A stretch of 64,000 bases of DNA from Nitratireductor indicus C115. GTDB taxonomy: Bacteria > Pseudomonadota > Alphaproteobacteria > Rhizobiales > Rhizobiaceae. Below, piece by piece: positions 1,641 to 35,826 of the stretch (positions are counted from its first letter, which is position 1; each line of letters begins with the position of its first letter). The stretch spans positions 124,001-188,000 of the forward strand of contig NZ_AMSI01000010.1 of assembly GCF_000300515.1 (NCBI RefSeq), given 5' to 3'. The translations under genes were made by a program, and so were the position numbers. The notes beneath the pieces are model-generated. The model was not told the DNA's origin, did not search any database, and was given only the letters and a program-made list of their open reading frames with translations.

Positions 1641-2882
1641 CTAAACGAGCAGGCTCATCGGATTTTCGATCCCGCTTTTGAAAGCTGCAAGCCATTGCGC
1701 GCCGACAGCTCCGTCGACCGCACGATGATCCACCGACAAGGTGCAGGTCATCGCCTCCGAAAAAGCGATCGTATCGCCTCGCTCGACCGGCCTGCGGCTC
1801 ACCGCCCCCACGGCAAGAATGCCGCTCTGCGGCGGATTGATAATCGCCGAGAAGGCTTTCACCCCATACATGCCCAGATTGGAGATGCTGAAGCATCCGC
1901 CCTGATATTCCTCAGGCTTCAGCCCTCCATCGCGCGCCCGCGCGGAAAGAGACTTGATCTCATCAGAAAGGCTTCCGAGGCTTTTGCGGTCGGCATCGCG
2001 CACAATGGGGGTAATGAGCCCGCCTTCCGTTGCCACCGCCACTGAAACATCCACCGCATGCGGCCGCAGAAGAGCCTCTTCGTTCCATATGCACCGCATG
2101 TCCGGCACGGCCCGCAGGGCAAGAGCAACAGCCTTAACGACGAAGTCGTTGATCGAGATGCGAGCGCTTGCCTCGCGCCCTTCATTGCATTGCGCCCGCA
2201 ACGCTATCAGCGGCGCCATCTCGCATTCTGTTTCGAGGTAGAAATGCGGCACCGTCGTCTTCGCCTCGTGCAGGCGCCGGGCGATGGTGCGGCGCATGGA
2301 CGATAGCGGCAGCACCTCATAGTCCCCGATCCCGAGCGGGACATGAGCAGTAGCGTGCACAGACTGTTTTCCGGGCTCTTCAAGCGGGGGAATACGGGTA
2401 GACGATCGATCGGCCAGCGCATGTTCCACATCGAGGCGCACGATACGCCCTTTCGGCCCCGACCCGGAAAGACCCGAAAGCTCCAACCCGTGCTCTGCGG
2501 CAAGCCTCCGTGCCAGCGGAGAGGCCGAATGCCGAGGCACAGCCGGTCCGGAAGACCTTGCAGGCACGTTTACGGCGACAGGGCTGAGTTTGTCGGCTTG
2601 CGCCGCAGGCTTCGACGACGCCGGCATCTCGACATTTTCCTCGCCCTCGGCAAGGATCACCGCGATCAGCTGATTGACGCCCGCCCGCTTTCCGGCAGGC
2701 ACCAGAATGCGGCCGAGTTTTCCCGAACCGGGGGCTTCGATCTCCATCGTCGCCTTGTCTGTTTCAACCTCCGCTACGGGTTCCCCGGCTGCGACATCGT
2801 CGCCTTCCGCCTTCAGCCATTGCGCGATAACACCGTCTTCCATCCCCGCCGCAAGTGACGGGAGAACGATCTCGATAGCCAC
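1641..2882 (-). CDS. 2-oxoacid dehydrogenase E2, dihydrolipoyl acyltransferase
   Basis: The E2 component (413 aa) of a pyruvate/acetoin/branched-chain-type dehydrogenase complex; it carries the acyl group on lipoate and passes it to CoA. Domains in order: lipoyl domain with the modified Lys in ETDKATMEIEAP (K43), an Ala/Pro linker, a peripheral-subunit-binding domain (about 118-156, SPLARRLAAEHGL), and the acyltransferase domain with SVDHRAVDG near the C-terminus (H386, D390). It follows the E1 gene by 83 bp and is the last gene of the minus-strand operon. No E3 gene is present, so the general cellular dihydrolipoamide dehydrogenase is presumably used. Acyl specificity is unknown. Confidence 0.93.
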   Translation of the reverse strand: MAIEIVLPSLAAGMEDGVIAQWLKAEGDDVAAGEPVAEVETDKATMEIEAPGSGKLGRILVPAGKRAGVNQLIAVILAEGEENVEMPASSKPAAQADKLSPVAVNVPARSSGPAVPRHSASPLARRLAAEHGLELSGLSGSGPKGRIVRLDVEHALADRSSTRIPPLEEPGKQSVHATAHVPLGIGDYEVLPLSSMRRTIARRLHEAKTTVPHFYLETECEMAPLIALRAQCNEGREASARISINDFVVKAVALALRAVPDMRCIWNEEALLRPHAVDVSVAVATEGGLITPIVRDADRKSLGSLSDEIKSLSARARDGGLKPEEYQGGCFSISNLGMYGVKAFSAIINPPQSGILAVGAVSRRPVERGDTIAFSEAMTCTLSVDHRAVDGAVGAQWLAAFKSGIENPMSLLV

Positions 2883-2965: not shown

Positions 2966-5152
2966 TCAGGCGTCGAGCGGCAAGCCCTGATCCGCCATGA
3001 GCGAACGCAAGGCCCGTTCGATATCCTGGGGACGGGCGCATGCGGCAGCCTCCAGAACCTTCGAGATGGAAGGAGAGGCTTCCGCCCCGTGAACCCGTTG
3101 CACCGGCTGGTCGAGCCAGTCGAAAAGCCGTCTCTGGATCTCGTCGGCAAGCCATCCGCCGTAGGATGTGCCAGCCGCCCCCTGCTCGACGATCAGGACA
3201 TTGCCGGTCTTGCGGACCGAGGCTTCGATGGTTTCCCAATCGAGACCCGCGCGGTCGAGGCTGCGCAGATCGATCACCTCCGCGTCAATGCCCAGTTCCT
3301 CGACGACGGCACGGGTTTTCTCGACCATGGCAAGATAGGTGAGGATTGTGGCCTTGCTGCCCTCGCGCACGACCCTGGCCTTGCCAAGCGGGATGAAGAA
3401 ATCGAAATCCTCTACGGGAGCCATGCCCTTGGAGGCATAGAGATCCACATGTTCAATGACCAGAACCGGATCGCGGCATAAAAGCGCCGAGTTCATCAGC
3501 CCCACATAATCGAAGGGCGTCGAAGGCGCCACGATGCGCCAGCCGGGCGCAGTCGCGAATATGCCCGCCGGGTCCATCGAATGCTGCGAACCATAACCCG
3601 TTCCCATGGCAATCTTGGTGCGCAGAACGAGCGGCATGTCGCTTTCCCCGCCAAACATGTGGCGTGCCTTGCCGATCTGGTTGAACACCTGGTCGGCGGC
3701 CACCCACATGAAGTCCGGATACATGAACTCCACCACCGGACGCACTCGTCCGTCGGCTGCCATTCCGGCGGCAATCCCCGTAAAGGCATTTTCGCTGATT
3801 GGCGTGCCAAGGATACGTCCGGGAAACCGGTCGGAAAGGCCGCGCGTCGCACCATTTGTGCCACCCTTCAGACGATGGACGTCCTCGCCCAGAACCACCA
3901 CCCTGTCATCGGTCTCCATGCGGCGGGCCATGACGTCGGCGACCGTGTCGATGAAGCGGACTTCTTCCAGCGCGCCGGAAAACCCGGCCTCTTCCGCGAA
4001 GCGCTTGCCTTCGAATTCGGAAAGGTCGCCACGAACGCCGAAATCGCGAAAATCCTCGTCGGGCCAGAGGGCTGGAACGACCCGCCGGACACCGTCCACC
4101 TCTTCGATCAGCTCGCCGGCGACCTCGTCCATCAGGGAAACGCAGCGCTGGCGCAACGCCTGCGCCGCCTCATCTCCGAGAATCTGGCGATCCCGCAAGG
4201 TCCGTCCCAGCGCGTCCAGCGGATCGCGCGCACGCCATTCCGCTTCCTCCGCCTTGCTACGGTAACCGAAGGCACTGCCAGGAAGCGCACCATTCTGGTG
4301 GAAATACCGATAAAGATCGGCCTCGATGATCGTCGGCCCCTCGCCAGCCCGCATGATGCGATTTGCTTCTTCGCAGGCGAGATAGACCGCCAGCGCATCC
4401 ATGCCGTCGACCTTGATCGAGGGTATGCCGAAGGCCGAGCCGCGCGATGAAAGTCGCGGTTCGGCCGTCACCTCATCCACATGCGTGGACACGGCATACC
4501 GGTTGTTCTCGATAAAGAAGCAGATCGGCAGCTTCCATGCGGCGGCCACATTCATCGTCTCCAGCACGGAGCCGATATTCGTCGCTCCATCGCCGAAATA
4601 GGTATAGACGACATTGTCGGTACCCGCATGCCGATGCGCCCAGGCAGCGCCGGCGGCCATGGGTACGCCACCGCCGACGATCGCGTTCGTGCCCAGATTG
4701 CCCGCTTCTTCCCAACGCAGATGCATGGAACCGCCACGGCCATGGCAAAAGCCCTGCGCAAGACCCATGATTTCGGACAAGGTCCTCGACGCAAGGTCGC
4801 GCAGATCGGCCCCGAAAGCGGCCGTTGGATCGAGCCCGTCCTGCGCAAGATAGGAAAGCGCCTTGGCGAGAAACTGGTGATGTGCCCGGTGCGATCCGTT
4901 CACCTGGTCGCCGGGTTTCATGGAAATGGCCGATCCCACCGCACCCGCTTCCTGACCGATAGCAGAATGCGCGGGACCGTGGACGAGCCCTTGCGCGGCC
5001 AGTTCCAGAACCTTCTCCTCGAAAGCGCGGATCAGATGCATCTGCACCAGCATGCTGCCGGCGAGCTTCGGATCGAGCGTCAGGCGGTCGTCTTCGCTGA
5101 CCCTCAGTTCCCGCCACGGGCTTTTCGGAGTGAGATCGAGATAGTCGGGCAT
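2966..5152 (-). CDS. 2-oxoacid dehydrogenase E1, fused alpha and beta subunits
   Basis: A 728-residue thiamine-diphosphate enzyme that decarboxylates a 2-oxo acid (or acetoin) and acylates the E2 lipoate. The alpha part (about 1-345) holds the TPP motif from GDGATNIG (187) to ENN (215-217). The beta part (about 370-728) has VVLGEDV, SENAFTGIAAGMA and the phenylalanine-rich FMYPDFMWVA. Both subunits are one chain, as in several rhizobial E1 proteins. The frame is open upstream to 5521 but that part lies inside the next gene; MPDYLDL at 5152 is the natural start. Whether it acts on pyruvate, acetoin or another keto acid cannot be decided here. Confidence 0.9.
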   Translation of the reverse strand: MPDYLDLTPKSPWRELRVSEDDRLTLDPKLAGSMLVQMHLIRAFEEKVLELAAQGLVHGPAHSAIGQEAGAVGSAISMKPGDQVNGSHRAHHQFLAKALSYLAQDGLDPTAAFGADLRDLASRTLSEIMGLAQGFCHGRGGSMHLRWEEAGNLGTNAIVGGGVPMAAGAAWAHRHAGTDNVVYTYFGDGATNIGSVLETMNVAAAWKLPICFFIENNRYAVSTHVDEVTAEPRLSSRGSAFGIPSIKVDGMDALAVYLACEEANRIMRAGEGPTIIEADLYRYFHQNGALPGSAFGYRSKAEEAEWRARDPLDALGRTLRDRQILGDEAAQALRQRCVSLMDEVAGELIEEVDGVRRVVPALWPDEDFRDFGVRGDLSEFEGKRFAEEAGFSGALEEVRFIDTVADVMARRMETDDRVVVLGEDVHRLKGGTNGATRGLSDRFPGRILGTPISENAFTGIAAGMAADGRVRPVVEFMYPDFMWVAADQVFNQIGKARHMFGGESDMPLVLRTKIAMGTGYGSQHSMDPAGIFATAPGWRIVAPSTPFDYVGLMNSALLCRDPVLVIEHVDLYASKGMAPVEDFDFFIPLGKARVVREGSKATILTYLAMVEKTRAVVEELGIDAEVIDLRSLDRAGLDWETIEASVRKTGNVLIVEQGAAGTSYGGWLADEIQRRLFDWLDQPVQRVHGAEASPSISKVLEAAACARPQDIERALRSLMADQGLPLDA

Positions 5153-5187
5153 TCTGGTCTCCGCAATTCGGTCGGATTGATACTGGC

Positions 5188-5958
5188 TCAGGCCGCCAGG
5201 AAGCCGCCATCGACCGGCAGGATGGCGCCGGTTACGTAGCTGGCGAGATCGGAAGCGAGGAATGCGACGGGACCGACCACTTCGTCGGCTTCGCCAATGC
5301 GCTTCATTGGCACACGGTTGAGAAACCAGTCCGCGCCGCCCGGTCGGGCAAGCTGCGCCGTCGCCATTTCGGACATCATGATGCCTGGCGCCACGGCGTT
5401 CACCCGCACACCGTGCGGCGCCAGATCGCGCGCCATGACCTGCGTGAGCGAACGGATCGCCCCCTTGGACACCACGTAGCCCGCTGTCGATCCGCCTGCG
5501 ACGAAACCCGCCACCGAGCACAGATGCACCACATTGCCTTTATGCGCCTTGAGAGCCGGCACGAAGGCATGCGAGACGTTGAAGGCGCCTTCCAGATTGA
5601 CGGCCATGACCTGGTCCCAGACCTGGGGAGCTTCCGGCTCGCCGAACGCAGCCCGGCCCGCCCGCCCCGCATTGTTGACGAGAATGTCGAGCCCGCCATG
5701 CCGTTCCTGATCGGCCTCAGCGAAGGCCTGCACCGCAGCGCGGTCGGTCACGTCCAGCGCAAAGCCTTCCGCCTCATGCCCCTGCGCGAGCAATGACGCG
5801 GCCGTGTGTCGCGCGTTGTCGCCGTCGATATCCACGATCGTGATGCGCGCGCCATGAGCCGCCAGGCCCGAGGCGATAGAGGCCCCAAGGCCACGCCCGC
5901 CACCGGTAACGAGAGCGCGCCGGCCTGCTAGAAGTAAACTCTGTATTTGACTGGTCAT
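5188..5958 (-). CDS. SDR-family NAD(P)-dependent dehydrogenase
   Basis: A classical short-chain dehydrogenase of 256 residues. The dinucleotide-binding motif TGGGRGLGAS is near the N-terminus, an NAG(R) motif follows (LVNNAGRAG), the catalytic Tyr and Lys are in YVVSKGA, and the C-terminus ends in VDGGFLAA. IVDIDGD after strand 2 carries an acidic residue, which favours NAD over NADP. A TTG at 5994 would add 12 residues; neither start has a strong ribosome binding site. It sits 35 bp upstream of the E1 gene in the sugar operon and probably oxidises an intermediate of that pathway. The substrate is unknown. Confidence 0.88.
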   Translation of the reverse strand: MTSQIQSLLLAGRRALVTGGGRGLGASIASGLAAHGARITIVDIDGDNARHTAASLLAQGHEAEGFALDVTDRAAVQAFAEADQERHGGLDILVNNAGRAGRAAFGEPEAPQVWDQVMAVNLEGAFNVSHAFVPALKAHKGNVVHLCSVAGFVAGGSTAGYVVSKGAIRSLTQVMARDLAPHGVRVNAVAPGIMMSEMATAQLARPGGADWFLNRVPMKRIGEADEVVGPVAFLASDLASYVTGAILPVDGGFLAA

Positions 5959-6037
5959 CTGACAACTTGCATCGGTTGTGGCCACATCGGCCAAGGTTCA
6001 AAGGTGGCGCGGTGCCGGATCGTTTCGCGTTGCGGCG

Positions 6038-6781
6038 CTAGACCATGTAGATGCCGCCATTCACCTGAATGGTTTCGCCAGTGACGAAACTCGCCGCCGG
6101 AGAGCACAGGAAGGCCACGACGGAAGCGACCTCCTCGGGAGCGCCAAGGCGGGCAAGCGGTGTCTGGGCGACGGAATCCGAACCGCGCCGAGCGATGAGG
6201 TCCCGCGTCATCGGTGTTTCGATGATGCCGGGCGCCACGGCATTCACCCGCGTCTTCGGCGCCAGTTCCCGTGCCAGGCTACGGGTCAGGGAGGTCAGCG
6301 CGCCTTTCGTCGCCGAATAATGGGCGTTGCTGAAAGCCCCCCGGTGCGCGGCAAGCGATGTCATGTTGACGAGCGAGGACCCTTCGCGCAGTGCCGGCAG
6401 CGCCCGGCGCGAGAGATAGAATACCCCGTCGAGATTAATGCCGATGGTGCGGTGCCAGTCGGCATCGCTCATCTCGGAGAACGCAACCGATTGGTAGATG
6501 CCGGCAGACGGGATCAGGAAATCGATGCCGCCGAAGCGGGAAACAGCAAGCTCAACGGTCGCTTCAGCCGATGACGGCTCGGAAGCATCGGCCTTGAGCC
6601 AGGCAATGCGATCCGTGTCGCCAAGCTCCATTGCCAGTTCCTGAAGCGCCGGCTCGTCGAGGTCGCTCAGAACGAGATTGGCCCCCGCGTGAAAGAAGAG
6701 CTTCGCCACGGCGCGGCCTATGCCGCCATTGGCTCCGCTCATGACAAGGGTCCTGCCCCCGAAATCGAATGTCACACCCAT
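6038..6781 (-). CDS. SDR-family dehydrogenase, second of two
   Basis: A 247-residue short-chain dehydrogenase with cofactor motif SGANGGIG, an acidic residue after strand 2 (SDLDEP, suggesting NAD), the active-site YSATK, and a C-terminal ITGET-like segment [11 protein letters not shown]. The NNAG motif is changed to IPSAG. The start follows an excellent ribosome binding site (GGGAGGAATTTC before ATG). It lies between the 106-bp palindromic repeat and the first SDR in the same operon. Two different SDRs in a row suggest two successive oxidations, for example of a sugar or polyol and a later hydroxy acid; that is inference. Confidence 0.88.
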
Positions 6782-6869: not shown

Positions 6870-6975
6870 CTAGAGCGTTTCATCGTTTCATGGAAACCCT
6901 GAACCGCTCTATCTCTTTGTTTTTCTGCATTTATGCAGACGTCAGGTGATTCCACCTGACTGCGAAATGCTCTAG
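6870..6975. repeat. 106-bp compound palindromic repeat, Bru-RS-like
   Basis: The element begins CTAGAGC and ends GCTCTAG. It contains three hairpins: an imperfect long stem at 6873-6909 (GAGCGTTTCA against TGAACCGCTC), TCTGCA-TTTA-TGCAGA at 6924-6939, and GTCAGGTG-ATTC-CACCTGAC at 6941-6960. Length and nested palindromes recall the Bru-RS1/RS2 repeats of Brucellaceae (103 and 105 bp), but I cannot verify identity. It sits inside the operon, and its terminal CTAG supplies the TAG stop codon of the sugar ABC ATPase gene. It probably also forms structure in the operon mRNA. Confidence 0.7.
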
Positions 6976-8474
6976 TGCACTGCCGCGTACATGATCTTTT
7001 CCTCAGTTGCCTCGCCCGGCGAGAATTCCTCGACCACCCGCCCCATCCTGCTGACCAGGATACGGTCCGAAAGAACGAGGATTTCGGGAAGATAGGAGGA
7101 GATCACGAGAACGGCGATCCCGCTGTCGGCAAGTCCCTGGATCACCTTGTGAATTTCAGCGATCGCCCCCACGTCGACACCGCGCGTTGGCTCATCGAAG
7201 ATGACAAGACGCGGCTTCTGGGTGAGCGACTTGGCGATTACCACCTTCTGCTGGTTGCCGCCGGACAACTCCACAATGCGGGCATTGGGATTGATTGCGC
7301 GGATATGGAGAAGGCGCGACCATTCCTCGGTTACCTTGCGCTGCGTGCTGGCGCTTGCGATGCCGCCTGCGGGCGGATCGGTGACGATATGGCCCATATA
7401 GATGTTCTCGGCGATGGACATCTGCTCGAAGAATCCTTCGGCCTTGCGGTCCTCGGAGACATAGACGATGCCATCCATCACGGCGCGGTGCGGCTGGCGG
7501 TAGCGTACCGAACGCCCCATGAAGCGCAGTTCTCCACCATGGAAGATATTGCGCTTCAGAACGCCGGCGATGATCTTCGCGGTCTCCGTGCGCCCCGATC
7601 CGATCAGGCCGAAAAGCCCTGTCACCTGGCCGGCATAGAGCGAAAAGGAATTGTTGCGGACCATCGAACCCATGGAGAGGTTCTCAACGCTCAACACCTT
7701 CGGACCGGGCTTGCGGGCCTCCTCGTCGCTGCGCTTGTGGTAGAAGAGCTCGTCGGAAAGGCTGCGCCCCACCATCGACGCGATGATGCTGTCGCGGTCG
7801 AAGGTTTCCGTCTTGTTCGATGCAACGAGTTCGCCATCGCGCAGGATGGTGATGCGATCCGATATCGCCAATGCCTCTTCCAGCGCGTGGCTGATGAAGA
7901 CGATCGACACGCCGCGCTTGCGCAGCCTGTCGATGAGCGAGAAGAAATAGTGCTTCTCCTCCGGCGTCAGCGTGGCGGTCGGTTCGTCGAAGATGATCAC
8001 GCGCGCATTGAGACGCACGGCCCTGGCGATCTCCACGAGCTGCTTTTGCGCAGCGCCGAGCGTCGACACCGATGCCCATGGATCGACATTGAAGTTTAGG
8101 GAGGAGAGAAACTGCTGGGCTGCAATGTAGAGGCCACGCAACCGGTTGAAGAGTTTTTCTTCCCCCAGATAGAGGTTCTGGGCGACGGTCATGGAGGGAA
8201 CGAGGCTGGTTTCCTGGAACACCATGGCGATGCCGCGCTCCAGCGCCTCCGCCGGGTTCTGGAAATCGATGACCTCGCCGTCGAGCGTGATCGTCCCGTT
8301 CGAGCGTTGGGTCACCCCAGCGATCATCTTGGTGAGGGTGGATTTGCCCGCTCCGTTTTCACCCAGCAGCGCATGTGTCTCACCTTCATAGAGGGAGAAA
8401 TCCACATTCTTCACCGCGTAGACGCCGCGATATTCCTTGGAAACACCGCGCATTTCGATCAAGGGCGCCTTCAT
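6972..8474 (-). CDS. Sugar ABC importer ATP-binding protein (CUT2, RbsA type)
   Basis: A 500-residue double ATPase that powers a monosaccharide importer at the inner face of the membrane. The N-terminal cassette has GENGAGKST and LGAAQKQLVEIARA; the C-terminal cassette has LFGLIGSGRTE in place of a canonical Walker A and LSGGNQQKVVIAKSL with IFDEPTRGVDVGA. That asymmetry is normal for RbsA/MglA proteins. Its start overlaps the stop of the propeller gene by 4 bp (ATGA). The stop codon TAG lies within the terminal repeat sequence at 6972-6974, so repeat insertion may have set the present C-terminus (EEKIMYAAVH). Confidence 0.93.
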   Translation of the reverse strand: MKAPLIEMRGVSKEYRGVYAVKNVDFSLYEGETHALLGENGAGKSTLTKMIAGVTQRSNGTITLDGEVIDFQNPAEALERGIAMVFQETSLVPSMTVAQNLYLGEEKLFNRLRGLYIAAQQFLSSLNFNVDPWASVSTLGAAQKQLVEIARAVRLNARVIIFDEPTATLTPEEKHYFFSLIDRLRKRGVSIVFISHALEEALAISDRITILRDGELVASNKTETFDRDSIIASMVGRSLSDELFYHKRSDEEARKPGPKVLSVENLSMGSMVRNNSFSLYAGQVTGLFGLIGSGRTETAKIIAGVLKRNIFHGGELRFMGRSVRYRQPHRAVMDGIVYVSEDRKAEGFFEQMSIAENIYMGHIVTDPPAGGIASASTQRKVTEEWSRLLHIRAINPNARIVELSGGNQQKVVIAKSLTQKPRLVIFDEPTRGVDVGAIAEIHKVIQGLADSGIAVLVISSYLPEILVLSDRILVSRMGRVVEEFSPGEATEEKIMYAAVH

Positions 8475-9583
8475 TGCTTTTCTCCCCCGCGGCTTGCGTC
8501 CGGTTTCAGGCGCAGCAATGCATCGCCGCCGCGTGATGTGACGAGCAGGCCATCGGCTGTCGCAAGAGCGCTGGTGATACCGTGGCGGCTGCCATCCGCG
8601 CGGCTGTGATAGCTGCTGCGCGGTTGAAGCGCCCCGTCAAGCCGCACAAGCAGGCCATAGGATCGCGTCGGCGCCCAGGGCTTCAACACACCGAGCTGCT
8701 TCACCGCTCCGCCCTGCAGCGGTTCGCGGAAACTGCGTCCAGAACGCATGGCGGGAGCAACCCAGAATTCCGGCTCGACCTCGTTCAGCATCCGCTTGCG
8801 GAAAGTGGCCTCGCGCAGCACGAATTCGATGAGCTGGCTGCGCGGCGCAAAGCAGCTGAGCCACACATCGCCCTTATCCGCCTGGAGACACCCGGGATAG
8901 GCCGGAAGATTGTCGAGCAGCACCTTTGGCTGCTCCTCTTTCATGGCAACGCCCAAAAGCCGATGCCGCCATGCCTCGGCCACAACGATCTGGGTGCTCT
9001 CGGCTGAACGGACAAGAAGGCCGGACGGCCAGGCCAATCCGCTGGCCAGCCGGCGTGCCCGCGAGGGGTCGCCAGCCGGAACATGCCAGACCGTCCCATC
9101 GTGGCGGCGCTCCATGAGGTTGCGCGCCCAGTCCGAGGGGCCATGCCGCGCAGAACCGCTGGCAACCACCAACCCGCCATCGGCGGCAAAGGCAATGGCC
9201 GTGACGCAATGGGCGCCCGAAAAGGAATTCGCCTCGATCCGGCGCTCGCCGGAGGCATCGTCACGCAGGAGAATGCCCTGCCCCTCTAGGGCAATGGCGA
9301 TTCGTCCCGCGCCGTCGCTTGCAAGCGCGCTGATCGGCGCACCGAAGCTTTCCAGCATTTCCGTCCTGCCGTCGGCAGCCAGTCTTATCAGGCTGCCGCC
9401 GCTGCTGAACATCACCCGCCCGCCATACTCGATGAGATTGTCGGGCTCGGTCTGTTCGACAACACATTCGGCTGTATCGAGAACCGTATTCGGCTGGAAT
9501 GCCCCGTCGAGCGGCGGCACCGTGACGGCGGCCTCGCCTGCGCCGAAGAGGTTGTCGAAGGCCTTTTTCACGACAGCGATCAT
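8471..9583 (-). CDS. SMP-30/strictosidine-synthase-like propeller protein, diverged
   Basis: A 370-residue protein of the same beta-propeller family as the C-terminal half of the upstream fusion gene; for example VVAEAWRHRLLGV here matches FAETWACRISRFW there, and NLPAYPG matches DLPGYPDN. The Asn of the PDN segment, expected to bind metal in SMP-30/APMAP-type lactonases, is replaced (PGC), so it may have lost lactonase activity or act on something else. ATG at 9583 overlaps the fusion gene stop by 4 bp, which fixes the start; the open frame further upstream is a shadow. There is no signal peptide. It is cotranscribed with the sugar importer. Confidence 0.75.
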   Translation of the reverse strand: MIAVVKKAFDNLFGAGEAAVTVPPLDGAFQPNTVLDTAECVVEQTEPDNLIEYGGRVMFSSGGSLIRLAADGRTEMLESFGAPISALASDGAGRIAIALEGQGILLRDDASGERRIEANSFSGAHCVTAIAFAADGGLVVASGSARHGPSDWARNLMERRHDGTVWHVPAGDPSRARRLASGLAWPSGLLVRSAESTQIVVAEAWRHRLLGVAMKEEQPKVLLDNLPAYPGCLQADKGDVWLSCFAPRSQLIEFVLREATFRKRMLNEVEPEFWVAPAMRSGRSFREPLQGGAVKQLGVLKPWAPTRSYGLLVRLDGALQPRSSYHSRADGSRHGITSALATADGLLVTSRGGDALLRLKPDASRGGEKQ

Positions 9584-11700
9584 TTGCTCCCCCAATAGGC
9601 GGCCTGGCTTGTCCAGTTCGGGTCGGCATCGGGCAGCGGGTAGCAACCGATGCGATTGTTGTTGATGCCGCCAAGGTAGAGCGCACCCTTGTGCTCGCGG
9701 ATCGAGGTGATCTGCGGGTGGGACTGTCCGCCCAGATCCCACAGCGATTCCGTCACCGTTCCATCGAGCTTGAGCTTGAGCACGCAGCCCGTGTTCAGAT
9801 TTGGATAAAGCCATTCGTCCATGGCCACGCGCTGCGCCATGCGGCGGCGGAAGGCCGGCATCTTGAGACTGAGATCGAAGGCCGGTGAGCGCATGCCCGC
9901 AAGCGCCACCCAGAACGAACCGTCGGACGCCAGGTTGATATTGTCGGGATATCCCGGAAGGTCCTCGACCACCGGTTCCACCTGGCCCTTGCGCGGCCCG
10001 TCGAACCAGAAGCGGCTGATGCGGCACGCCCAGGTTTCGGCAAAAAGAAGGGACTCGCCGTCCCCCACCATGCAGATGCCGTTGGGAAACACCCGGCCCG
10101 TCAGGACCGTGCGTGTGGAACCGTTCCTGGGATCGTAGGCGATGATGCGGCCATTGCCGCGTGCTTCAAGCGCGTCCACCGCCCAGTCCGAAACGCCATA
10201 GCGGATCGTCGCCTCGGAGAAGAACACCCGACCGTCAGCGGCGATATCCAGATCGTCCGCCATGCGGATGCGGGAATCGTCGATGATCGAGAACAGGCTG
10301 CGATTGGTCTCGTCCGAGAGGCAGCGGATCTCCCGCTCGGGCGTAACCATGTAGAGCCCCATACCGGCCACGCAGGCATGGAGATTGTCATCCTTGTCGA
10401 AGGCCAGTCCCAGCGGGAAGCCCCCGAGATGGACGAAAACCTCAGATCGCTTGTAGTCGGGCGCGAGGAAGCGGATGATATCGCCCTGGCGCCCGCCCGT
10501 ATAGAGATTGTCCCTGGAATCGAAGATCATGTCCTCGGGGCCGTCCAGCTCTCCGAGCCCGATCGCGCCCACACCCCTGAAGCGGTCATTGACCGCATAG
10601 GGAGACGCCGAGCCCGCCTCGGTTTGCGGCGCGTCCGGCAAGTCGAAATAGGTCGGCGACACATAAACCCGCGACAGAAGCTTGTGGCGGTTCTTCAGCC
10701 AGCGGATATCCACCGCAACGGCAAGCAGCAGGAGGAGGCCGAGTACAAGCGGTGTCGAGCCGCTCGGCATGTTGAGCCGGATAAGGCTATTGGTCACCAG
10801 AAGCACAATGACCGTACCGATCAGCGCCTTGAAGATCGACCCGCGCCCGCCGCCGAGGCTGATACCGCCGAGGACGGCGGCGGTCAGCACCGTCACCTCT
10901 AGGCCGATGCCCGTATCCGGCCCGACACTGCCGAGGCGGGCCGCGTAAAACATGCCTCCTGCAGCCGCGAGCATGCCTGAGATCACATAGGTGAAGAATA
11001 CCGTGCGGCGCACGGAGATGCCGGCATTATAGGCCGAACGGCGCGAGCCGCCGACCGCCAGGATATGCCAGCCGAACCGCATGCGGCTCAGGACGACATG
11101 CGCGGCAAGCGCAACCGCAACCAGAAGCACGAAGTTCACGGGAATGCCGAACACATCCCCCTCGCCCAGAAAATACCAGGCGTCGGAATCCGTCATGGTC
11201 ATGGCGACCTTGCGCGCATAGGCCAGGATCAGAAGATCAACGACCGCGCGAACGATGATGAGCGTTGCAAGTGTCGTCAGGAAGGCGCGCAGGCGCAGAT
11301 AGCCGATCAGCACGCCATTGACGAAACCGACCAGCGCCCCAACGGCAAGCACCGCCGGAACGACCGCGTAGATCGGCCACCCGAGATAGTTGATCAGCGT
11401 CAAAGACACGAAATTGGCGAGCGCGAAGGTGGAACCGATGCTGAGATCGATCCCCCCGGCCAGCATGACGATGGCCAGGCCGATGGACAGGAAGGCCACT
11501 TCGCCCAGCTGGCGCGCGAGATCGGTGAAGCCGTTGAGGCTAAGGAAATTCGGAATGAGTCCCCCGAACAAGCCCAGAACGATCAGCAGGAAAGCGAAGG
11601 GGATCGCATTGTCGATCCAGTTCTTGGACAGAACTTCGCCCAGGAGATGGTCCGGGATCAGGCGGTATCGCCACTTCGCGTAGGATTCGGCAGCGGACAT
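9580..11700 (-). CDS. Sugar ABC permease fused to SMP-30-like lactonase domain
   Basis: A 706-residue fusion. Residues 1 to about 345 form an RbsC-type permease: many hydrophobic helices, and the family signatures MLAGGIDLSIGST and AAVLGGISLGGGRGSI. After a short linker (about 350-380) comes a six-bladed propeller of the SMP-30/gluconolactonase/strictosidine-synthase-like group: LDGPEDMIFD, LGLAFDKDDNL, FAETWACRISRF, DLPGYPDNINLASDG, with the expected metal-binding Asn kept. If the permease has the usual cytoplasmic C-terminus, the enzyme would sit at the channel exit. A TTG at 11745 is an alternative start. Propeller residues differ from classical gluconolactonase, so the substrate is open. 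Confidence 0.88.
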   Translation of the reverse strand: MSAAESYAKWRYRLIPDHLLGEVLSKNWIDNAIPFAFLLIVLGLFGGLIPNFLSLNGFTDLARQLGEVAFLSIGLAIVMLAGGIDLSIGSTFALANFVSLTLINYLGWPIYAVVPAVLAVGALVGFVNGVLIGYLRLRAFLTTLATLIIVRAVVDLLILAYARKVAMTMTDSDAWYFLGEGDVFGIPVNFVLLVAVALAAHVVLSRMRFGWHILAVGGSRRSAYNAGISVRRTVFFTYVISGMLAAAGGMFYAARLGSVGPDTGIGLEVTVLTAAVLGGISLGGGRGSIFKALIGTVIVLLVTNSLIRLNMPSGSTPLVLGLLLLLAVAVDIRWLKNRHKLLSRVYVSPTYFDLPDAPQTEAGSASPYAVNDRFRGVGAIGLGELDGPEDMIFDSRDNLYTGGRQGDIIRFLAPDYKRSEVFVHLGGFPLGLAFDKDDNLHACVAGMGLYMVTPEREIRCLSDETNRSLFSIIDDSRIRMADDLDIAADGRVFFSEATIRYGVSDWAVDALEARGNGRIIAYDPRNGSTRTVLTGRVFPNGICMVGDGESLLFAETWACRISRFWFDGPRKGQVEPVVEDLPGYPDNINLASDGSFWVALAGMRSPAFDLSLKMPAFRRRMAQRVAMDEWLYPNLNTGCVLKLKLDGTVTESLWDLGGQSHPQITSIREHKGALYLGGINNNRIGCYPLPDADPNWTSQAAYWGSK

Positions 11701-11803: not shown

Positions 11804-12820
11804 TCAGAACGGCGCGTTGGCCACGTCGTCCATCGTCCAGCAGGAATTGGCGCGCATCGTATCCTTGAAGATGTCGCGGATCGGCGTGTAGATGGCGTAG
11901 GGTGCCTGGCCGGGTTCCAGATTGGCCTGCAGCACCTGCACGATTGCGTCGGTGAGGTCGCGTGCCTGGCCGAAGGCATCATAGCTGACATAGCCGCTGA
12001 ACGTTCCGTTCGCGATGCTGTCGCAGGCAGGCTTCTGACCGCCGCCATTCGTGAACAGCTTGATCGCATCGGTCTTGCCGGCTTCGCGGATTGCCGCAGC
12101 AACGCCCGCATCCATCACTTCCCAAAGGCCCACATAGGCGCACAGTTCGGGGTTCTGCTTGATGACGGTGGAGGCTACCGCATGAGCCTTCGTGGCATCC
12201 CAGTCAGCGGACTGGCTTGAAACGACCTCGATCTCCGGGTTCTCGGCCAGAACGTCCTCAATGGCGCTCATGGTGATGGCGTTGTTCGGGTTGGTCGGCG
12301 TACCCTGCATGATGGCGATCTTGCCGCTTCCACCCTTCTTCGGGCTGCACGCCTCGATGGCCATCCGTGCCTGGTGCAGGCCCACTTCGTACCAGTTCAC
12401 GCCCACATAGGCGTCGGTGGTGGCAACCGATTTGAGGTTGATCTGGATAACGCGGATGCCGGCTTTCTGGGCACGCGTCAGAAGGCGCGCATAGACCTGC
12501 ATGTCGGGATTGTGCACGATCAGGAGATCGGGCTTTTCGCTGATCAGCGTGGTCAGCGCCTGCGCGCCCGCATCGCTGCTCCAGTTGGGATCGCGCACGG
12601 AGAAATCATAGCCGAGGCGCGCAGCCTGCGTTTCCATACCCTTTGCCCAGACCTGCGGCAGGTCGAAGCTCATGGCGAGCGGAAGGAATACCACCTTCTT
12701 GCCCTTCATGGCTTCGTAATAGGCCGGGGCAAGCCCGTCGTCGAACTGCTCGGCATGGCCGTACCCCGCCGCCCCGATCATCACCAGTGCAGCAAAAGCT
12801 GCCTTCAACATATTCCGCAT
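11804..12820 (-). CDS. Sugar ABC importer periplasmic substrate-binding protein
   Basis: A 338-residue type I periplasmic-binding protein (RbsB/LacI fold) with an N-terminal signal peptide ending near GYGHAEQ. Typical elements are VVFLPLAMSFDLPQVWAKGM, LLIVHNPDMQVYARLL and VIQINLKSVATTDAYVGVNW. A good ribosome binding site (GGGAGGACGGTA) precedes ATG 12820; upstream codons in the same frame are not needed. It lies between the stand-alone permease and the permease-propeller fusion in the operon. The ligand is probably a sugar or polyol, but the binding pocket cannot be read from sequence. Confidence 0.9.
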   Translation of the reverse strand: MRNMLKAAFAALVMIGAAGYGHAEQFDDGLAPAYYEAMKGKKVVFLPLAMSFDLPQVWAKGMETQAARLGYDFSVRDPNWSSDAGAQALTTLISEKPDLLIVHNPDMQVYARLLTRAQKAGIRVIQINLKSVATTDAYVGVNWYEVGLHQARMAIEACSPKKGGSGKIAIMQGTPTNPNNAITMSAIEDVLAENPEIEVVSSQSADWDATKAHAVASTVIKQNPELCAYVGLWEVMDAGVAAAIREAGKTDAIKLFTNGGGQKPACDSIANGTFSGYVSYDAFGQARDLTDAIVQVLQANLEPGQAPYAIYTPIRDIFKDTMRANSCWTMDDVANAPF

Positions 12821-12851: not shown

Positions 12852-13859
12852 TCAGATGTCCCCTTGCTGAGCGGTCTGCTCGTCACGCGGGTTTGCGATG
12901 CTGTCGACGATGATTGCGATGAGAAGCACCGCCCCCTTCACCAGGTTCTGCACGGTGAAGGACATATCCAGAATCGTCATTCCGTTGAGGAGAATGCCGA
13001 TCAGCAGCGTTCCGACGACGACATTGCGCACGCCTCCCTTGCCGCCGCTCAGGCCGATACCGCCGAGCACCACAACGAGGATGACGTCGTAGACCATCGT
13101 TGACTGGGCCACCCGGATGTTGACCGTCGCCAGAAGCGAAGCCGTGATCATTCCTGCTACGAACGCGATGAGCGAAGAAATCAGATATTGCAGCACCGTC
13201 ATGGGCCGCACCGGGATACCGGTGATGCGCGCCGCCTCGCGATTGTCGCCCATGGCGAAGATGAAGCGGCCACGGCGCGTGAAGCGCAGAAAGGCGAAGG
13301 CTGCAAGAGCGACCGCCGCAAACCAGATGACCGGAAGCGGAATGCCCAGAAATTGCCCCGAAAGGGCGCGCAGCCAGGCGGCATCCTCCGGAAGATAGAT
13401 CACATCCAGATCGACCAGCGCCAGCCGACCGAAACCATAGATGACGGTCGACATGGCAAGCGTTGCGAAGATGGCCGGAATTTCGACATAGGCGACCAGA
13501 AACCCGATGACCAGACCGACCACCGCCGCAAAACCGAGCCCCAGCAGGACAGCGCTCACCGGGCCGGTGCCACCGTTCATGAGAGCGATCGTCCAGGCCG
13601 TGGACATGGCCATCGTCGTGACCATTGCGAGATCGATGCCGCGTCCGATGACGACAATGCCCATCGCGATGCCGAGAATGCCCAGGATGGAAACGTTCTG
13701 GATCAGCGAGAGGATGTTGTCGGCATCGAGGAACCCCGGCAGAAGGATCGAGAACCCGGCGAAGAACACGACTGCGATCAGGAAAACGATGCTTTCCTGC
13801 GTCACCCGGAATCGCGCAGTTGCGCGTCCACCGGCCTGAGCCGTACCGATCTCCGACAT
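12852..13859 (-). CDS. Sugar ABC importer permease (CUT2, RbsC type)
   Basis: A 335-residue polytopic membrane protein with the family signatures GIAMGIVVIGRGIDLAMV and VVVLGGIGLSGGKGGVRN. The ribosome binding site GGGAGGGAAT before ATG 13859 supports the start. It is the first gene of the minus-strand operon, and its promoter region faces the divergent FadR-type regulator. With the permease-propeller fusion it gives the importer two different permease chains, suggesting a heterodimeric channel in which only one subunit carries the enzyme domain. Confidence 0.92.
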   Translation of the reverse strand: MSEIGTAQAGGRATARFRVTQESIVFLIAVVFFAGFSILLPGFLDADNILSLIQNVSILGILGIAMGIVVIGRGIDLAMVTTMAMSTAWTIALMNGGTGPVSAVLLGLGFAAVVGLVIGFLVAYVEIPAIFATLAMSTVIYGFGRLALVDLDVIYLPEDAAWLRALSGQFLGIPLPVIWFAAVALAAFAFLRFTRRGRFIFAMGDNREAARITGIPVRPMTVLQYLISSLIAFVAGMITASLLATVNIRVAQSTMVYDVILVVVLGGIGLSGGKGGVRNVVVGTLLIGILLNGMTILDMSFTVQNLVKGAVLLIAIIVDSIANPRDEQTAQQGDI

Positions 13860-13978: not shown

Positions 13979-14074
13979 TAGGCAAGTATCTCATCATGTG
14001 ATTTGGCTTGCCTTCGCGCTTTGGCAGAACCTATTGTTGCGCGCGGAAGAACGAGATGATGGAATTTGCAAGCA

Positions 14075-14815
14075 ATGAGCCCAACCAACGGCAACAACCG
14101 GCGGCTGAACCCGCCGCGCAGCTACGCCAGCAAAGTGGCGGATATCCTGCGCGACGAAATCCAGCGCGGCGTGTTTCGTCCGGGCGAAAGGCTGCCCACG
14201 GAAGTGGTTCTGGGTGAGACCTTCGGCGTCAGCCGTGCTGTGATTCGCGAGGCGATCTTCGCTCTCAAGCAGGATGGCATTGTGGAAAGCTACCAGGGGC
14301 GTGGCATTTTCGTTGCCCAGTCATTGCCCGAGGCGACTTTTCGCCTGGCCCGTGCGGAACTGAATGATTCCGACGAGATCGACCGTGTTTTCGAGTTTCT
14401 CCTGGCCCATGAAGCGGCTGCCGCAGCCCTTGCCGCCGAAAGGCGCAACGAGGCCGACTTGAGCCGCATCCGCATGGCGTTGGAAGCCATCGATCATGCC
14501 ATAGAACGCGGAGAAAACGGTATCGAGCAGGACATGGCGTTTCATTCCGAGATTCTGGCGGCGACGAAGAATCATCTCTTCGTCTCTTTCGGCGCCTTTC
14601 TGGAAAATCGCGTGCGCCATCTGATCCGCGAGGCGCGCGCCAACAGTTCGCGCAAGGGGCTCACGCAATATGTCCAGGAAGAGCACCGCGCCATCTATGC
14701 AGCCATAGCCGATGGCGACAAGGAAGCCGCCCGCAACGCAGCCGAAACCCACCTTGCCAATGCCGCGGCCCGCCTGCGCGTGTACAGCGCTGTCACCCCC
14801 GTTCCGGCACGATAG
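14075..14815 (+). CDS. FadR-subfamily GntR transcriptional regulator
   Basis: A 246-residue regulator with an N-terminal winged helix (about 15-80: GERLPTEVVLGETFGVSRAV then VESYQGRGIFVAQ) and a helical FCD ligand domain. In the FCD part FHSEILAATKNH and the EEHRAI...ETHL histidines are the usual metal-binding positions for carboxylate effectors. The ATG at 14075 gives a normal N-terminus; a TTG at 14066 would add three residues. It is divergent from the sugar operon and probably represses that operon and itself until an acidic pathway intermediate binds. Confidence 0.88.
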   Translation: MSPTNGNNRRLNPPRSYASKVADILRDEIQRGVFRPGERLPTEVVLGETFGVSRAVIREAIFALKQDGIVESYQGRGIFVAQSLPEATFRLARAELNDSDEIDRVFEFLLAHEAAAAALAAERRNEADLSRIRMALEAIDHAIERGENGIEQDMAFHSEILAATKNHLFVSFGAFLENRVRHLIREARANSSRKGLTQYVQEEHRAIYAAIADGDKEAARNAAETHLANAAARLRVYSAVTPVPAR

Positions 14816-33273: not shown

Positions 33274-33389
33274 GCTTTGCGCCCGGTGAAAAGCTGCTTG
33301 TCATGACGGCTTCTCCCCCGCGCATCGGCGAAGCGCTACACCTCTGGTCCCAGCCGGCAAATGTGCGGAAAGTCCCGCGAGGAGGACAG

Positions 33390-34175
33390 ATGACGACCCT
33401 ACCCGAATTCGCCACGGTGCAATCACGGATCGAAGATGGCATCGCCATCGTCACCATCAACCGCCCCCCGGTGAACGCGCAGAACCGATTGTTGCGCGAG
33501 GAAGTCATCCAGCTTTTCGACATGCTGAGCGATCTCGACGAAGTGCGGGTCGTGGTGCTGACCGCCACCGGCCGTATCTTCTCGGCCGGTGCCGATATCA
33601 AGGAGCGCGCGGGCTTCGAGGAAACGCCCGGACACTACATTGCCCACAACCGGCTGACCCGCGAGTTCTTCTACGCAGTCTCCGATTGCGCAAAACCGGT
33701 GATTGCAGCGGTTAACGGTCCCGCCTTCGGCGCAGGCTTTGCGCTGATGCTGTCCTGCGACATCATGTTTGCCAGCGAGGATGCGTATTTCGTCATGCCT
33801 GAAATCGACGTCGGCCTTGCGGGCGGGGTGAAGTTCATTGCCCGTCACTTCGGCAAGTCACGTACCGCGGCGATGTATCTGACGGGGCGTCGTTACCCGG
33901 CTACTGAACTCTATCGCCTTGGCATCATCGAGGCCGCTCTGCCTGAAGAGGAAATGTGGGCCGAGGTCATGAAAATGGCGCGCGAGATCGCCGCCAAGAG
34001 CCCTTTGGCCATACGCAAGATCAAGCGGGCCATGCAGATCATCGACGAGATGCCCGAACGCGAAGCCTATCGCTACGAGCAAAGCGTGACGGTGGAGCTC
34101 TCCCACACGGAAGACGCCCGGGAAGCCCAAAGGGCCTTTGTCGAGAAGCGGCCGGCACACTTTAAGGGCCGCTGA
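33390..34175 (+). CDS. Crotonase-family enoyl-CoA hydratase/isomerase
   Basis: A 261-residue crotonase-fold protein with the CoA/oxyanion motif FSAGADIKE and AAVNGPAFGAGFALMLSCDI. Compared with true enoyl-CoA hydratase, the second catalytic Glu in VMPEIDVGLAGG is present but the first (GGGCELA in the family) is replaced by Ala (GAGFALM). It could therefore be an isomerase, hydrolase or other crotonase rather than a hydratase. GAGGAGGACAG before ATG 33390 fixes the start; the earlier in-frame ATG at 33303 is not preferred. It lies just before the GMC oxidoreductase gene. Confidence 0.85.
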   Translation: MTTLPEFATVQSRIEDGIAIVTINRPPVNAQNRLLREEVIQLFDMLSDLDEVRVVVLTATGRIFSAGADIKERAGFEETPGHYIAHNRLTREFFYAVSDCAKPVIAAVNGPAFGAGFALMLSCDIMFASEDAYFVMPEIDVGLAGGVKFIARHFGKSRTAAMYLTGRRYPATELYRLGIIEAALPEEEMWAEVMKMAREIAAKSPLAIRKIKRAMQIIDEMPEREAYRYEQSVTVELSHTEDAREAQRAFVEKRPAHFKGR

Positions 34176-34191
34176 AAAAGGCATGAGATCA

Positions 34192-35826
34192 ATGACTTCG
34201 ATGACAGACCGGATTCAAGACTTCGGGCAGTTCGACTATATTGTGAACGGCGGCGGTTCGGCAGGGTGCGTTCTTGCCAACCGGCTCTCTGCAAACCCGC
34301 GCAATCGCGTGCTTCTTCTGGAAGGCGGCGGCCAGGATAACTGGATATGGTTCCATATCCCGGTCGGCTATCTTTTCGCCATCGGCAATCCCCGCGCGGA
34401 CTGGATGTTCCGCACCCAGGCGGAAGAAGGCTTGAACGGCCGCTCGCTCGCCTATCCACGCGGCAAGGTGCTGGGCGGTTCCTCCGCCATCAATGCCATG
34501 ATCTACATGCGCGGCCAGGCCGATGACTACAATGTCTGGCAGCAGGAAGGCCTGCCAGGCTGGGGGTGGGACGATGTATTGCCCTACTTCCTGAAACATG
34601 AGGATCATATTGACGGGGCAAGTGCATTCCATGCCGCCGGCGGCGAATGGAGGGTCGAGCATCCGAGAATTCGCTGGAAGATACTCGACACGATCCGGGA
34701 TGCGGCCGAAAATGCCGGCATTCGCAAGATCGATGATTTCAACCGTGGCGATAATGAAGGCTCCTCCTATTTTCAGGTGAACCAGCGTGCCGGCCGACGT
34801 TGGAGCGCAGCACGTGGTTTCCTGAAGCCCGCAGCTCACAGGCCCAACCTGCAGATCGTTTCCAACGCAACCGTCAAAAAGGTGGAGTTCGAAGGCAGGC
34901 GTGCTCGCGCCGTGATCTTCGAACAGCAAGGCATCTGGCGGCGCGCCATCGCGAATGGAGAGATCATCCTGTCGACCGGCGCCGTTGCTTCCCCCGTCAT
35001 ACTTGAAGCCTCCGGCATCGGAGATGGTGCAAGACTCTCCTCCCTCGGGATTGAAACCGTTCAGCACGCACCCGGCGTCGGCGAGAACCTGCAGGATCAT
35101 CTGCAGATACGGCCGATCTTCAAGGTTCAAGGCGTGCCGACCCTGAATAGCCTTTATGCCAATCTCTTCCGCCGCGCGATGATGGGACTGGAATATGCGT
35201 TCCGGCGCTCCGGCCCTCTCACCATGGCGCCCTCCCAGCTTGGCGCCTTTGCCCGCTCATCGGACGCATTCGACAGGGCCAATCTGCAGTTTCACTTCCA
35301 GCCGCTCTCCCTCGACGACTGGGGCAAGGGCCTGCACCCCTTCGATGCTTTCACCGCCAGCGTGTGCAATCTGCGGCCCACAAGTCGAGGCAGCATCCAT
35401 ATGGTCCGCGACGACCAGGGAGCCGCTTTGCCGGAAATTCGCCCCCGCTATCTCTCGAGCGAGCAGGATAGGCAGGTGGCGGTGGATTCTCTCAAGTTGG
35501 TGCGCCGCATCGTCGAACAGCCCGCGCTAAAGCCTTATGGTCCGGTCGAGTTCCGTCCCGGCCCCGATATCCGCTCGGATACTGAGCTTCTGAAAGCAGC
35601 CGGCGACCTGGGCACCACCATCTTCCACCCAGTCGGGACGGTAAAAATGGGCCGCAACGACGATCCGATGGCCGTTCTGGATGAAAGGCTGCGCGTGCGC
35701 GGTGTTGACCGGCTGCGCGTGATCGATGCCTCCATCATGCCGTCCATCACTTCGGGCAATACGAATTCACCAACCATCATGATCGCCGAAAAGGGAGCGG
35801 CGATGATCCTGGAAGACGCCATGTGA
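34192..35826 (+). CDS. GMC-family FAD oxidoreductase (choline-dehydrogenase-like)
   Basis: A 544-residue GMC flavoenzyme that oxidises an alcohol. The FAD motif is [30 protein letters not shown] and [17 protein letters not shown] are the two GMC signatures. The C-terminal active-site His lies in [10 protein letters not shown] and the Asn in [16 protein letters not shown]. An Asn replaces the usual second hydrophobic residue before the Gly-rich loop. Several start codons are close together (34183, 34192, 34201); 34192 gives the best spacing to an AAGG sequence. It follows the crotonase gene closely, so both are probably cotranscribed. Substrate unknown. Confidence 0.9.

Follow-up and report, generated by a model that had tools for sequence, protein, structure and literature searches.

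A strictosidine-synthase-like propeller fused to a sugar-type ABC permease in a conserved importer operon, with a putative role at the channel exit

In a 64,000-nucleotide stretch of the Nitratireductor indicus C115 genome (the window; contig NZ_AMSI01000010.1, positions 124,001 to 188,000) one minus-strand frame joins an ABC permease to a propeller domain, which raises the questions whether the joined gene is real, what its importer carries and what the propeller does. Coupling between an enzyme and an importer has as a rule to be deduced from separate proteins, whereas this gene builds it into a single polypeptide, and an enzyme-like and a metal-less propeller adjoin each other. The gene and its parts are:

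9580..11700, minus strand: fused permease-propeller gene, 706 aa (open frame, Pfam domains, homologue alignment)
10666..11700, minus strand: permease part, residues 1-345 (BPD_transp_2 at 61-327; hydropathy)
10603..10704, minus strand: linker, residues 333-366 (conserved in the alignment)
9583..10602, minus strand: propeller part, residues 367-706, strictosidine-synthase-like (SSL_N, Str_synth and SGL; structure-sequence match)

As originally predicted, the translation runs through permease and propeller for 706 residues with no stop inside the frame, and all Pfam domains score over their cut-offs: BPD_transp_2 (E 3e-41, 141.8 vs 26.8 bits), SSL_N at residues 367-411, Str_synth at 482-568 (E 1.6e-16, 60.6 vs 25 bits) and SGL at 414-602 (40.7 vs 26.3 bits). 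The placement of the propeller in the SMP-30 superfamily stands, but within it the strictosidine-synthase-like group is the better fit, given the higher Str_synth score. Six blades are expected from the family, and the top-scoring solved chain is 8kg3; the permease part gave no match to sequences of solved structures at E 10. Hydropathy averaged over the family gives ten hydrophobic peaks in the permease part; four of them follow a strongly basic loop (residues 205-233) and a K/R-rich tail comes next, so that the C-terminus is predicted to be cytoplasmic, in agreement with the original proposal.

For comparison, an alignment of 88 rows was built from the window protein and 87 distinct homologues 640-760 aa long. 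The linker measures 31-34 residues in all rows, Tyr346 is invariant (88/88), and mean conservation is higher in the propeller than in the channel (0.76 and 0.66, respectively; 62 rows below 90% identity). The fusion is present in 37/199 genomes of the same family, including its own, and was matched, fused and at full length, in other genomes and on complete plasmids; it is conserved in many Alphaproteobacteria and in some other Proteobacteria. A propeller-only query against 398 genomes of the phylum and a permease-only query against 289 genomes of the class (the two samples share some genomes) returned close homologues that were fused in 17/17 and 9/9 cases, respectively, with no unfused one among matches of at least 52% (propeller) or 47% (permease) identity; the outcome named originally as grounds for rejecting the fusion, most homologues being two separate proteins, was accordingly not observed. 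The frame of one relative (L104) is broken.

The neighbourhood in the window is as follows:

1641..2882, minus strand: E2 acyltransferase (TIGR01349 barely over cut-off, 446.5 vs 445 bits)
2966..5200, minus strand: E1 alpha/beta 2-oxoacid dehydrogenase component in a single frame (E1_dh, Transket_pyr, Transketolase_C)
5188..5994, minus strand: short-chain dehydrogenase (Pfam)
6038..6781, minus strand: short-chain dehydrogenase (Pfam)
6972..8474, minus strand: RbsA-type double ATPase (two ABC_tran stretches)
8471..9583, minus strand: second propeller-like protein, 370 aa, metal site lost (sequence, match, model, ligand count)
11804..12820, minus strand: periplasmic binding protein (Peripla_BP_4, E 2e-43)
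12852..13859, minus strand: second permease, unfused (BPD_transp_2, E 2.5e-28)
14066..14815, plus strand: divergent GntR/FCD regulator (Pfam)

The operon encodes an RbsABC-type ABC importer whose two permease halves differ from each other. Of 72 fetched loci, 66 have the order permease, binding protein, fusion, second propeller and RbsA, and the remaining six are cut by contig ends; a second permease and RbsA accompany the fusion wherever the contig extends far enough.

With respect to the cargo, CoA-enzyme markers (52 proteins from the window's own genome) lie near 15/20 fusion loci compared with 1/40 ordinary sugar-permease loci; the enriched types are acyl-CoA ligases, enoyl-CoA hydratases, CoA-transferases and acyl-CoA dehydrogenases. 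An earlier count, biased since its markers were drawn from the fusion loci themselves, gave 15/20 vs 2/40, and with these markers aldehyde dehydrogenases (3/20 vs 3/40), short-chain dehydrogenases (3/20 vs 8/40) and thiolases (1/20 vs 2/40) showed no clear enrichment. The CoA markers make a plain sugar an improbable cargo. The five marker-free loci (L155-L159) belong to the least similar fusions (53-57% identity), suggesting that the CoA context marks part of the family; two of the five carry HMG-CoA genes. A CoA marker is likewise lacking in 15/49 long genome-contig loci. Of four annotated plasmid loci inspected, just one had a sugar-lactone context, and a Pantoea locus has sugar- or polyol-like surroundings. 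At L097 the thiolase neighbour passes the 3-oxoadipyl-CoA thiolase model. A hydroxycinnamate pathway (ligase, hydratase and aldehyde dehydrogenase) was considered and rejected: the best models of the three neighbours differ and are below cut-off.

A more specific lead comes from the fetched operons L158 and L159, where the importer lies between a degradative HMG-CoA reductase and an HMG-CoA lyase. In L158 the order is HMG-CoA reductase, permease, binding protein, fusion, second propeller, RbsA and HMG-CoA lyase; the reductase matches TIGR00532 ("degradative", 430.6 vs 260 bits) and the lyase PRK05692 (403.8 vs 246 bits). Both genes occur together in 5/20 fusion loci and 0/40 controls, and the reductase lies within 8 kb of a fusion in 7 of the 12 genomes having both; no reductase turned up at the 72 genome-contig loci, and the window's genome has its copy away from the fusion. 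This flanking points to mevalonate or its lactone as cargo in those operons. In view of the CoA-enzyme counts and of the mevalonate degradation genes at some loci, the sugar or sugar lactone proposed originally is not borne out in that form. The cargo probably differs between subgroups; a lactone, for one of them mevalonolactone, is quite possible, and mevalonate may also enter as the open acid, making hydrolysis needless.

As to what the propeller does, the residues at its putative metal site are:

10534..10536, minus strand: putative metal ligand 1, E389 (88/88 rows)
10255..10257, minus strand: putative metal ligand 2, D482 (D in 78 and N in 10 of 88 rows)
10081..10083, minus strand: putative metal ligand 3, N540 (88/88 rows)
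9940..9945, minus strand: D586-N587, putative metal ligand 4 and its neighbour (each 88/88 rows)
9718..9720, minus strand: H661 (87/88 fused rows, one gap)

We take E389, D482, N540 and D586 to be the metal ligands from the ligand roles in the superfamily and from the alignment. The full set (E, N/D, N, D) is present in 88/88 fused propellers, so that, judged by these residues, the fused propeller has an intact hydrolase-type metal site. The PDN segment, which had been singled out at the start for its retained Asn, corresponds to P585-D586-N587. H661 was found in 0/17 standalone relatives and is thus specific to the fused group among the rows compared. T665 (T in 87/88 rows, one gap) aligns with the column of the strictosidine synthase catalytic Glu, which we take to be Glu309; this Glu being absent, Pictet-Spengler chemistry is ruled out. 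According to the excerpted text of PMC4215206, the great majority of strictosidine-synthase-like proteins retain the four ligands and are likely to be hydrolases.

The second propeller-like gene, which with its lost metal site did not figure in the original prediction, starts in overlap with the stop codon of the fusion (ATGA). It matches the fused propeller at 27%, and its predicted model is mostly beta (mean pLDDT 88.5). It carries 0-2 of the four ligands in 87/88 rows and hence does not qualify as an N6P hydrolase; the odd row with four (P_L098) comes from a fused propeller lying at the end of a contig. The N587 column is here mostly Arg (Cys in the window's own copy) and the P662 column mostly His, Arg and His occurring jointly in 81/88 rows. 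On its possible origin by duplication of the fused propeller, the comparison has long branches. A hydropathy scan gave no segment in this protein and none in the binding protein either, and is thus uninformative about location.

We lean, tentatively, towards the fused propeller being an exit enzyme that opens an ester or lactone, with the metal-less propeller as a non-catalytic partner. Pointing this way are the four ligands in all rows, the conservation, the predicted cytoplasmic C-terminus, the CoA markers, the constant fusion, the superfamily trend toward hydrolysis and the RhaK precedent described below, and the mevalonate link adds confidence; hydrolysis itself and the geometry at the channel exit we infer. 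The binding protein would deliver an ester or lactone, RbsA would power its passage via both permeases, and the propeller beneath the channel exit would open it to a (hydroxy)acid that is trapped in the cell and passed to CoA-dependent catabolism. The cargo would be mevalonate or mevalonolactone where the HMG-CoA genes flank the importer, while in other subgroups the acid would become a CoA ester via a ligase or CoA-transferase; the second propeller may dock on the complex or sense the acid product. A bolder version, which we regard as doubtful, makes transport and the first catabolic step one cycle: substrate would pass from the channel straight into the hydrolase propeller of the permease, and the paired pseudoenzyme propeller would read the acid product and set the pump rate.

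It is also conceivable, with appreciably lower probability than the exit enzyme, that the propeller pair is regulatory, binding product or acyl-CoA to slow or license transport (trans-inhibition), catalysis being unneeded for uptake. The near-fixed linker and invariant Tyr suggest mechanical coupling, the second propeller is retained with its Arg and His despite at most two ligands in nearly all rows, and in RhaK, according to the excerpted text of PMC9025865, the role in transport can be separated from the kinase. The conserved metal site is compatible with such a use, but a pure sensor has no obvious need for four hydrolase ligands kept so strictly. We consider it unlikely that the propeller is just a common cytoplasmic hydrolase, tethered to the membrane for reasons of dosage or co-expression and uncoupled from the channel: standalone relatives do exist (23 matches at 31-39% identity in the 398 phylum genomes), and an importer gene lies within about 1.5 kb in 0/19 of those fetched, but close homologues are never unfused and linker length and residues are constrained. 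Very unlikely, too, is a scaffold for the second propeller or the ATPase with a merely structural metal; the presence in each operon of two propellers, of which one lacks the metal ligands, would suit it, but the conserved ligands, the fusion-specific H661 and the superfamily trend toward hydrolysis (excerpted text of PMC4215206) argue against it. A sequencing or assembly artefact joining two genes can be dismissed, refuted by the fused copies in family genomes, other fetched loci and plasmid records.

Under the exit-enzyme reading a single machine may handle both uptake and the first chemical step, and direct hand-over from channel to active site becomes testable, with mevalonate or mevalonolactone in the HMG-CoA-flanked subgroup as a concrete first substrate candidate. 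The data also suggest that "sugar ABC transporter" labels at fusion loci are often mistaken on cargo. If the bolder version is true, a large unnamed transporter family would couple the uptake of esters or lactones to their hydrolysis, mevalonolactone being the substrate of one subgroup.

Among known systems, the importer resembles the RbsABC/AraFGH type (CUT2) in its permease family, RbsA-type double ATPase and Peripla_BP_4 binding protein, and BPD_transp_2 in such an operon identifies the permease as RbsC/AraH-type. It differs in its pair of dissimilar permeases, of which one ends in a propeller, in its additional propeller gene and, in many loci, in its CoA-enzyme neighbours; moreover, none of the NCBIfam permease models listed reached its curated equivalog cut-off (best 166.4 vs 398 bits), with ribose, arabinose, allose, galactose and AI-2 as the sugar equivalogs tested. 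With the strictosidine-synthase-like/N6P superfamily the propeller shares the Str_synth, SSL_N and SGL domains (40/40 members scanned; Str_synth at E 0.01) and the four ligands, but here it is joined to an ABC permease and has the fused-group H661. SMP-30/gluconolactonase, the name given in 10/16 plasmid records, shares SGL, here a weaker match than Str_synth. Membership in the paraoxonases/arylesterases was rejected, Arylesterase (PF01731) being matched by 1/40 members (E 0.0038). No published description was found in the literature searched on the fusion. Mevalonate degradation uses HMG-CoA reductase and HMG-CoA lyase, the two enzymes flanking the importer in L158 and L159, and we know of no described mevalonate system that includes this importer. 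A close parallel in principle is the rhizobial kinase RhaK, which, according to the excerpted text of PMC9025865, is required for rhamnose uptake and contacts the ATPase RhaT through its ends; with RhaSTPQ, as here, a catabolic enzyme is tied to an ABC importer, but RhaK is, as described there, a separate kinase, whereas the propeller is part of the permease chain itself.

The 706-residue fusion protein is encoded by a single open frame on the minus strand (9580-11700), and Pfam domains of both halves bear out the one-frame permease-propeller fusion of the original prediction. The top-scoring solved chains for its propeller were 8kg3 (Os06g0623700 protein) and strictosidine synthases. The gene is part of an operon-like row of an unfused permease, a binding protein, the fusion, a 370-aa protein (the second propeller), RbsA, two short-chain dehydrogenases, an E1 alpha/beta frame and an E2 scoring narrowly over the mitochondrial-type PDH E2 model; a GntR regulator gene is divergent from the importer row.

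Residues 61-327 of the fusion: BPD_transp_2 (Pfam, over cut-off)
Within residues 367-602 of the fusion: SSL_N, Str_synth and SGL (Pfam, all over cut-offs)
8471-9583, minus strand: second propeller, 370 aa
6972-8474, minus strand: RbsA
2966-5200, minus strand: 2-oxoacid dehydrogenase E1 alpha and beta domains in one frame (744 aa)

Elsewhere in the window, CoA-type catabolism is represented by a GMC oxidoreductase adjoining an enoyl-CoA hydratase (33303-35826, plus strand) and by a family III CoA-transferase (43007-44224).

That the fusion is an artefact is ruled out by its presence in 37 of 199 same-family genomes (E 1e-60 or better, the window's own counted), at 72 fetched loci and on 16 plasmid records matching at E 1e-80 (80% or more of the query is covered in 15; Pantoea and Paraburkholderia among them), of which 10 carry the annotation 'SMP-30/gluconolactonase/LRE family protein'. 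The 72 loci, found with six peptides from both protein halves and hence biased toward fused relatives, are by record title mainly from Alphaproteobacteria, with some Betaproteobacteria and a few MAGs labelled otherwise. As predicted, the domain pair lies with a second permease and RbsA: permease, binding protein, fusion, second propeller and RbsA are ordered on one strand in 66 loci, and the other six run into a contig end. Nor are the homologues mostly two separate proteins. A propeller query against 398 phylum genomes gave 17 matches at 52-100% identity, every one within a frame of 707-840 aa. A further 23 matches, at 31-39%, come from outside the importer system: 21 have frames of 354-438 aa, the remaining two measure 620 and 956 aa, and the 19 that were fetched have no importer gene within about 1.5 kb. 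Nine weak partial matches, in fusion-bearing genomes, fit the second propeller. With the permease as query (289 genomes of the class), nine matches reach 47-100%, each of them fused, and another, at 35%, is unfused. One of 95 complete frames (101 loci) is broken, in Pseudophaeobacter leonis (L104:8001-9410), where the frame stops early at 469 aa through decay or an assembly error, with the second propeller and RbsA still present. A Dongia sp. MAG packs three fusion genes into one 19-kb stretch, with a second-propeller gene after each.

The fusion alignment comprised 88 distinct rows of 640-760 aa (the window and 87 of the 101 loci, identical and shorter rows left out; a few truncated by contig ends, 62 below 90% identity). 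In the alignment average the permease half has ten hydrophobic peaks (those at 76 and 94 poorly separated), a strongly basic loop at 205-233 (6.2 K/R vs 0.1 D/E) followed by four of the peaks, and a tail (331-366) with 5.4 K/R. The positive-inside rule is a guide to topology, and we take the basic loop to occupy the coupling-loop position of RbsC-type permeases; on these grounds the permease C-terminus, as originally proposed, and thus the fused propeller are predicted to be cytoplasmic. The linker measures 31-34 residues in all rows and Y346 is invariant.

We take E389, position 482, N540 and D586 to be the metal ligands of the fused propeller, from recall and the alignment. Since E389, N540 and D586 are each conserved in 88/88 rows and position 482 is always D (78) or N (10), all fused rows have the complete putative set, as do 15 of 17 standalone relatives (two of the 19 were left out for length). 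H661 is present in 87/88 fused rows vs 0/17 standalone rows, and at the column presumed to hold the catalytic Glu of strictosidine synthase the fusion has Thr. Passages of PMC4215206 describe a superfamily with four conserved metal ligands, which the great majority of strictosidine-synthase-like proteins retain as likely hydrolases.

The second propeller has at most two of the four ligands in 87/88 rows, the sole exception (P_L098) being in fact a fused propeller that sits at the end of a contig. The N587 column holds Arg in 82/88 rows (Cys in the window's protein) and the P662 column His in 86/88. The window's protein gave no Pfam match, but family members tell otherwise (34/51 match Str_synth at E 0.1), and its structure model is mostly beta (mean pLDDT 88.5). 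A conserved stretch (residues 289-296), part of it modelled with low confidence when alone, would fit a partner-binding loop. With start codons picked by script, the fusion and second-propeller genes overlap by exactly 4 bases in 66/97 measured pairs, and the second-propeller and RbsA genes by 4 bases in 58/96 and 1 base in 13/96, which implies that the three are probably translationally coupled. In a tree of 55 rows fused and second propellers each form one clade (100/99 and 94/92), their branching order relative to standalone relatives being unsure.

Recurrent neighbours at 73 loci (the 72 and the window) are acyl-CoA synthetases (26), short-chain dehydrogenases (22), AraC regulators (21), aldehyde dehydrogenases (13), family III CoA-transferases and enoyl-CoA hydratases (10 each) and acyl-CoA dehydrogenases (9). 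The window's own genome supplied 52 marker proteins for a comparison of 20 fusion loci, hand-picked from 59 match rows of the same-family search (one per genome), with 40 hand-picked loci of other RbsC-type permeases. These controls come from 27 genomes, among them 19 of the 20 behind the fusion loci, and six control stretches were below 17 kb. Any CoA enzyme was found at 15/20 vs 1/40 loci (Fisher p 4e-9, a guide only because the genomes are related): AMP-binding at 10 vs 1, enoyl-CoA hydratase 12 vs 0, CoA-transferase 5 vs 0 and acyl-CoA dehydrogenase 4 vs 0. As the five loci without a marker (L155-L159) have some of the lowest identities among the fusions (53-57%), the CoA-enzyme context characterises a part of the family. 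A CoA marker is present at 34 of the 49 genome-contig loci that span at least 17.5 kb; among the other 15, L041-L043 resemble the window, with close copies of its E1 frame and E2 at the importer. Matches to this pair at L057 and L091 are weak (28-37%), and on a Rhizobium sp. ACO-34A plasmid an E2 is annotated at the importer.

A Pantoea plasmid locus with polyol-type genes and D-arabinono-1,4-lactone oxidase counts against one CoA-type cargo. In Sulfitobacter the locus includes genes of the AMP-binding, acyl-CoA dehydrogenase and enoyl-CoA hydratase types, and on Paraburkholderia plasmid p22B1P2 (L255) the importer has nearby genes for CoA-transferase, MaoC dehydratase and CoA ester lyase, a set to us reminiscent of C5-dicarboxylate (itaconate/mesaconate) degradation. 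Because these contexts differ, the cargo is predicted to differ between loci and to vary across the family.

One of the five marker-free loci, L158, has on one strand a degradative HMG-CoA reductase, permease, binding protein, fusion, second propeller, RbsA and HMG-CoA lyase, reductase and lyase each over the curated cut-off.

L158:4480-13569, one strand: importer with flanking HMG-CoA reductase and HMG-CoA lyase

Its gene content suggests that this operon is likely for uptake of mevalonate or mevalonolactone. In a post hoc test with probes from L158, both enzymes occur together at 5/20 fusion loci (L143, L150, L151, L158, L159) vs 0/40 controls; in the 72 genome-contig loci the reductase is in none and the lyase in three. 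An independent search found the degradative reductase in 31/199 family genomes, 12 of them also with the fusion; in seven of the 12 (G019, G042, G064, G083, G121, G155, G178) it is at most 7.4 kb from a fusion gene, on the same strand in six. In the window's genome it is on a different contig from the importer. The lactone that mevalonate can form fits a lactonase-type propeller, but mevalonate imported as the open acid would need no hydrolysis.

Most likely, the fused propeller is a putative metal-dependent hydrolase at the channel exit, which would open an ester or lactone imported through the channel, and the resulting acid would be trapped in the cell and handed on for CoA-dependent breakdown. 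The main competing reading has the propeller act as a sensor or gate; by analogy, the RhaK case in rhizobia indicates that such enzyme-importer coupling exists in this group. The conserved metal site points to catalysis, the metal-less twin to an added sensing or docking role. Catalysis and sensing or docking may also go together.

Full-text literature searches found no published description of the fusion protein; its parts are each already known, the fused protein is already in databases, and we file the system as a variant of the CUT2-type importer. According to passages of PMC9025865, the rhizobial catabolic kinase RhaK interacts with its importer's ATPase and is required for uptake, i.e. 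a catabolic enzyme is coupled to an ABC importer, as we propose for the fusion.
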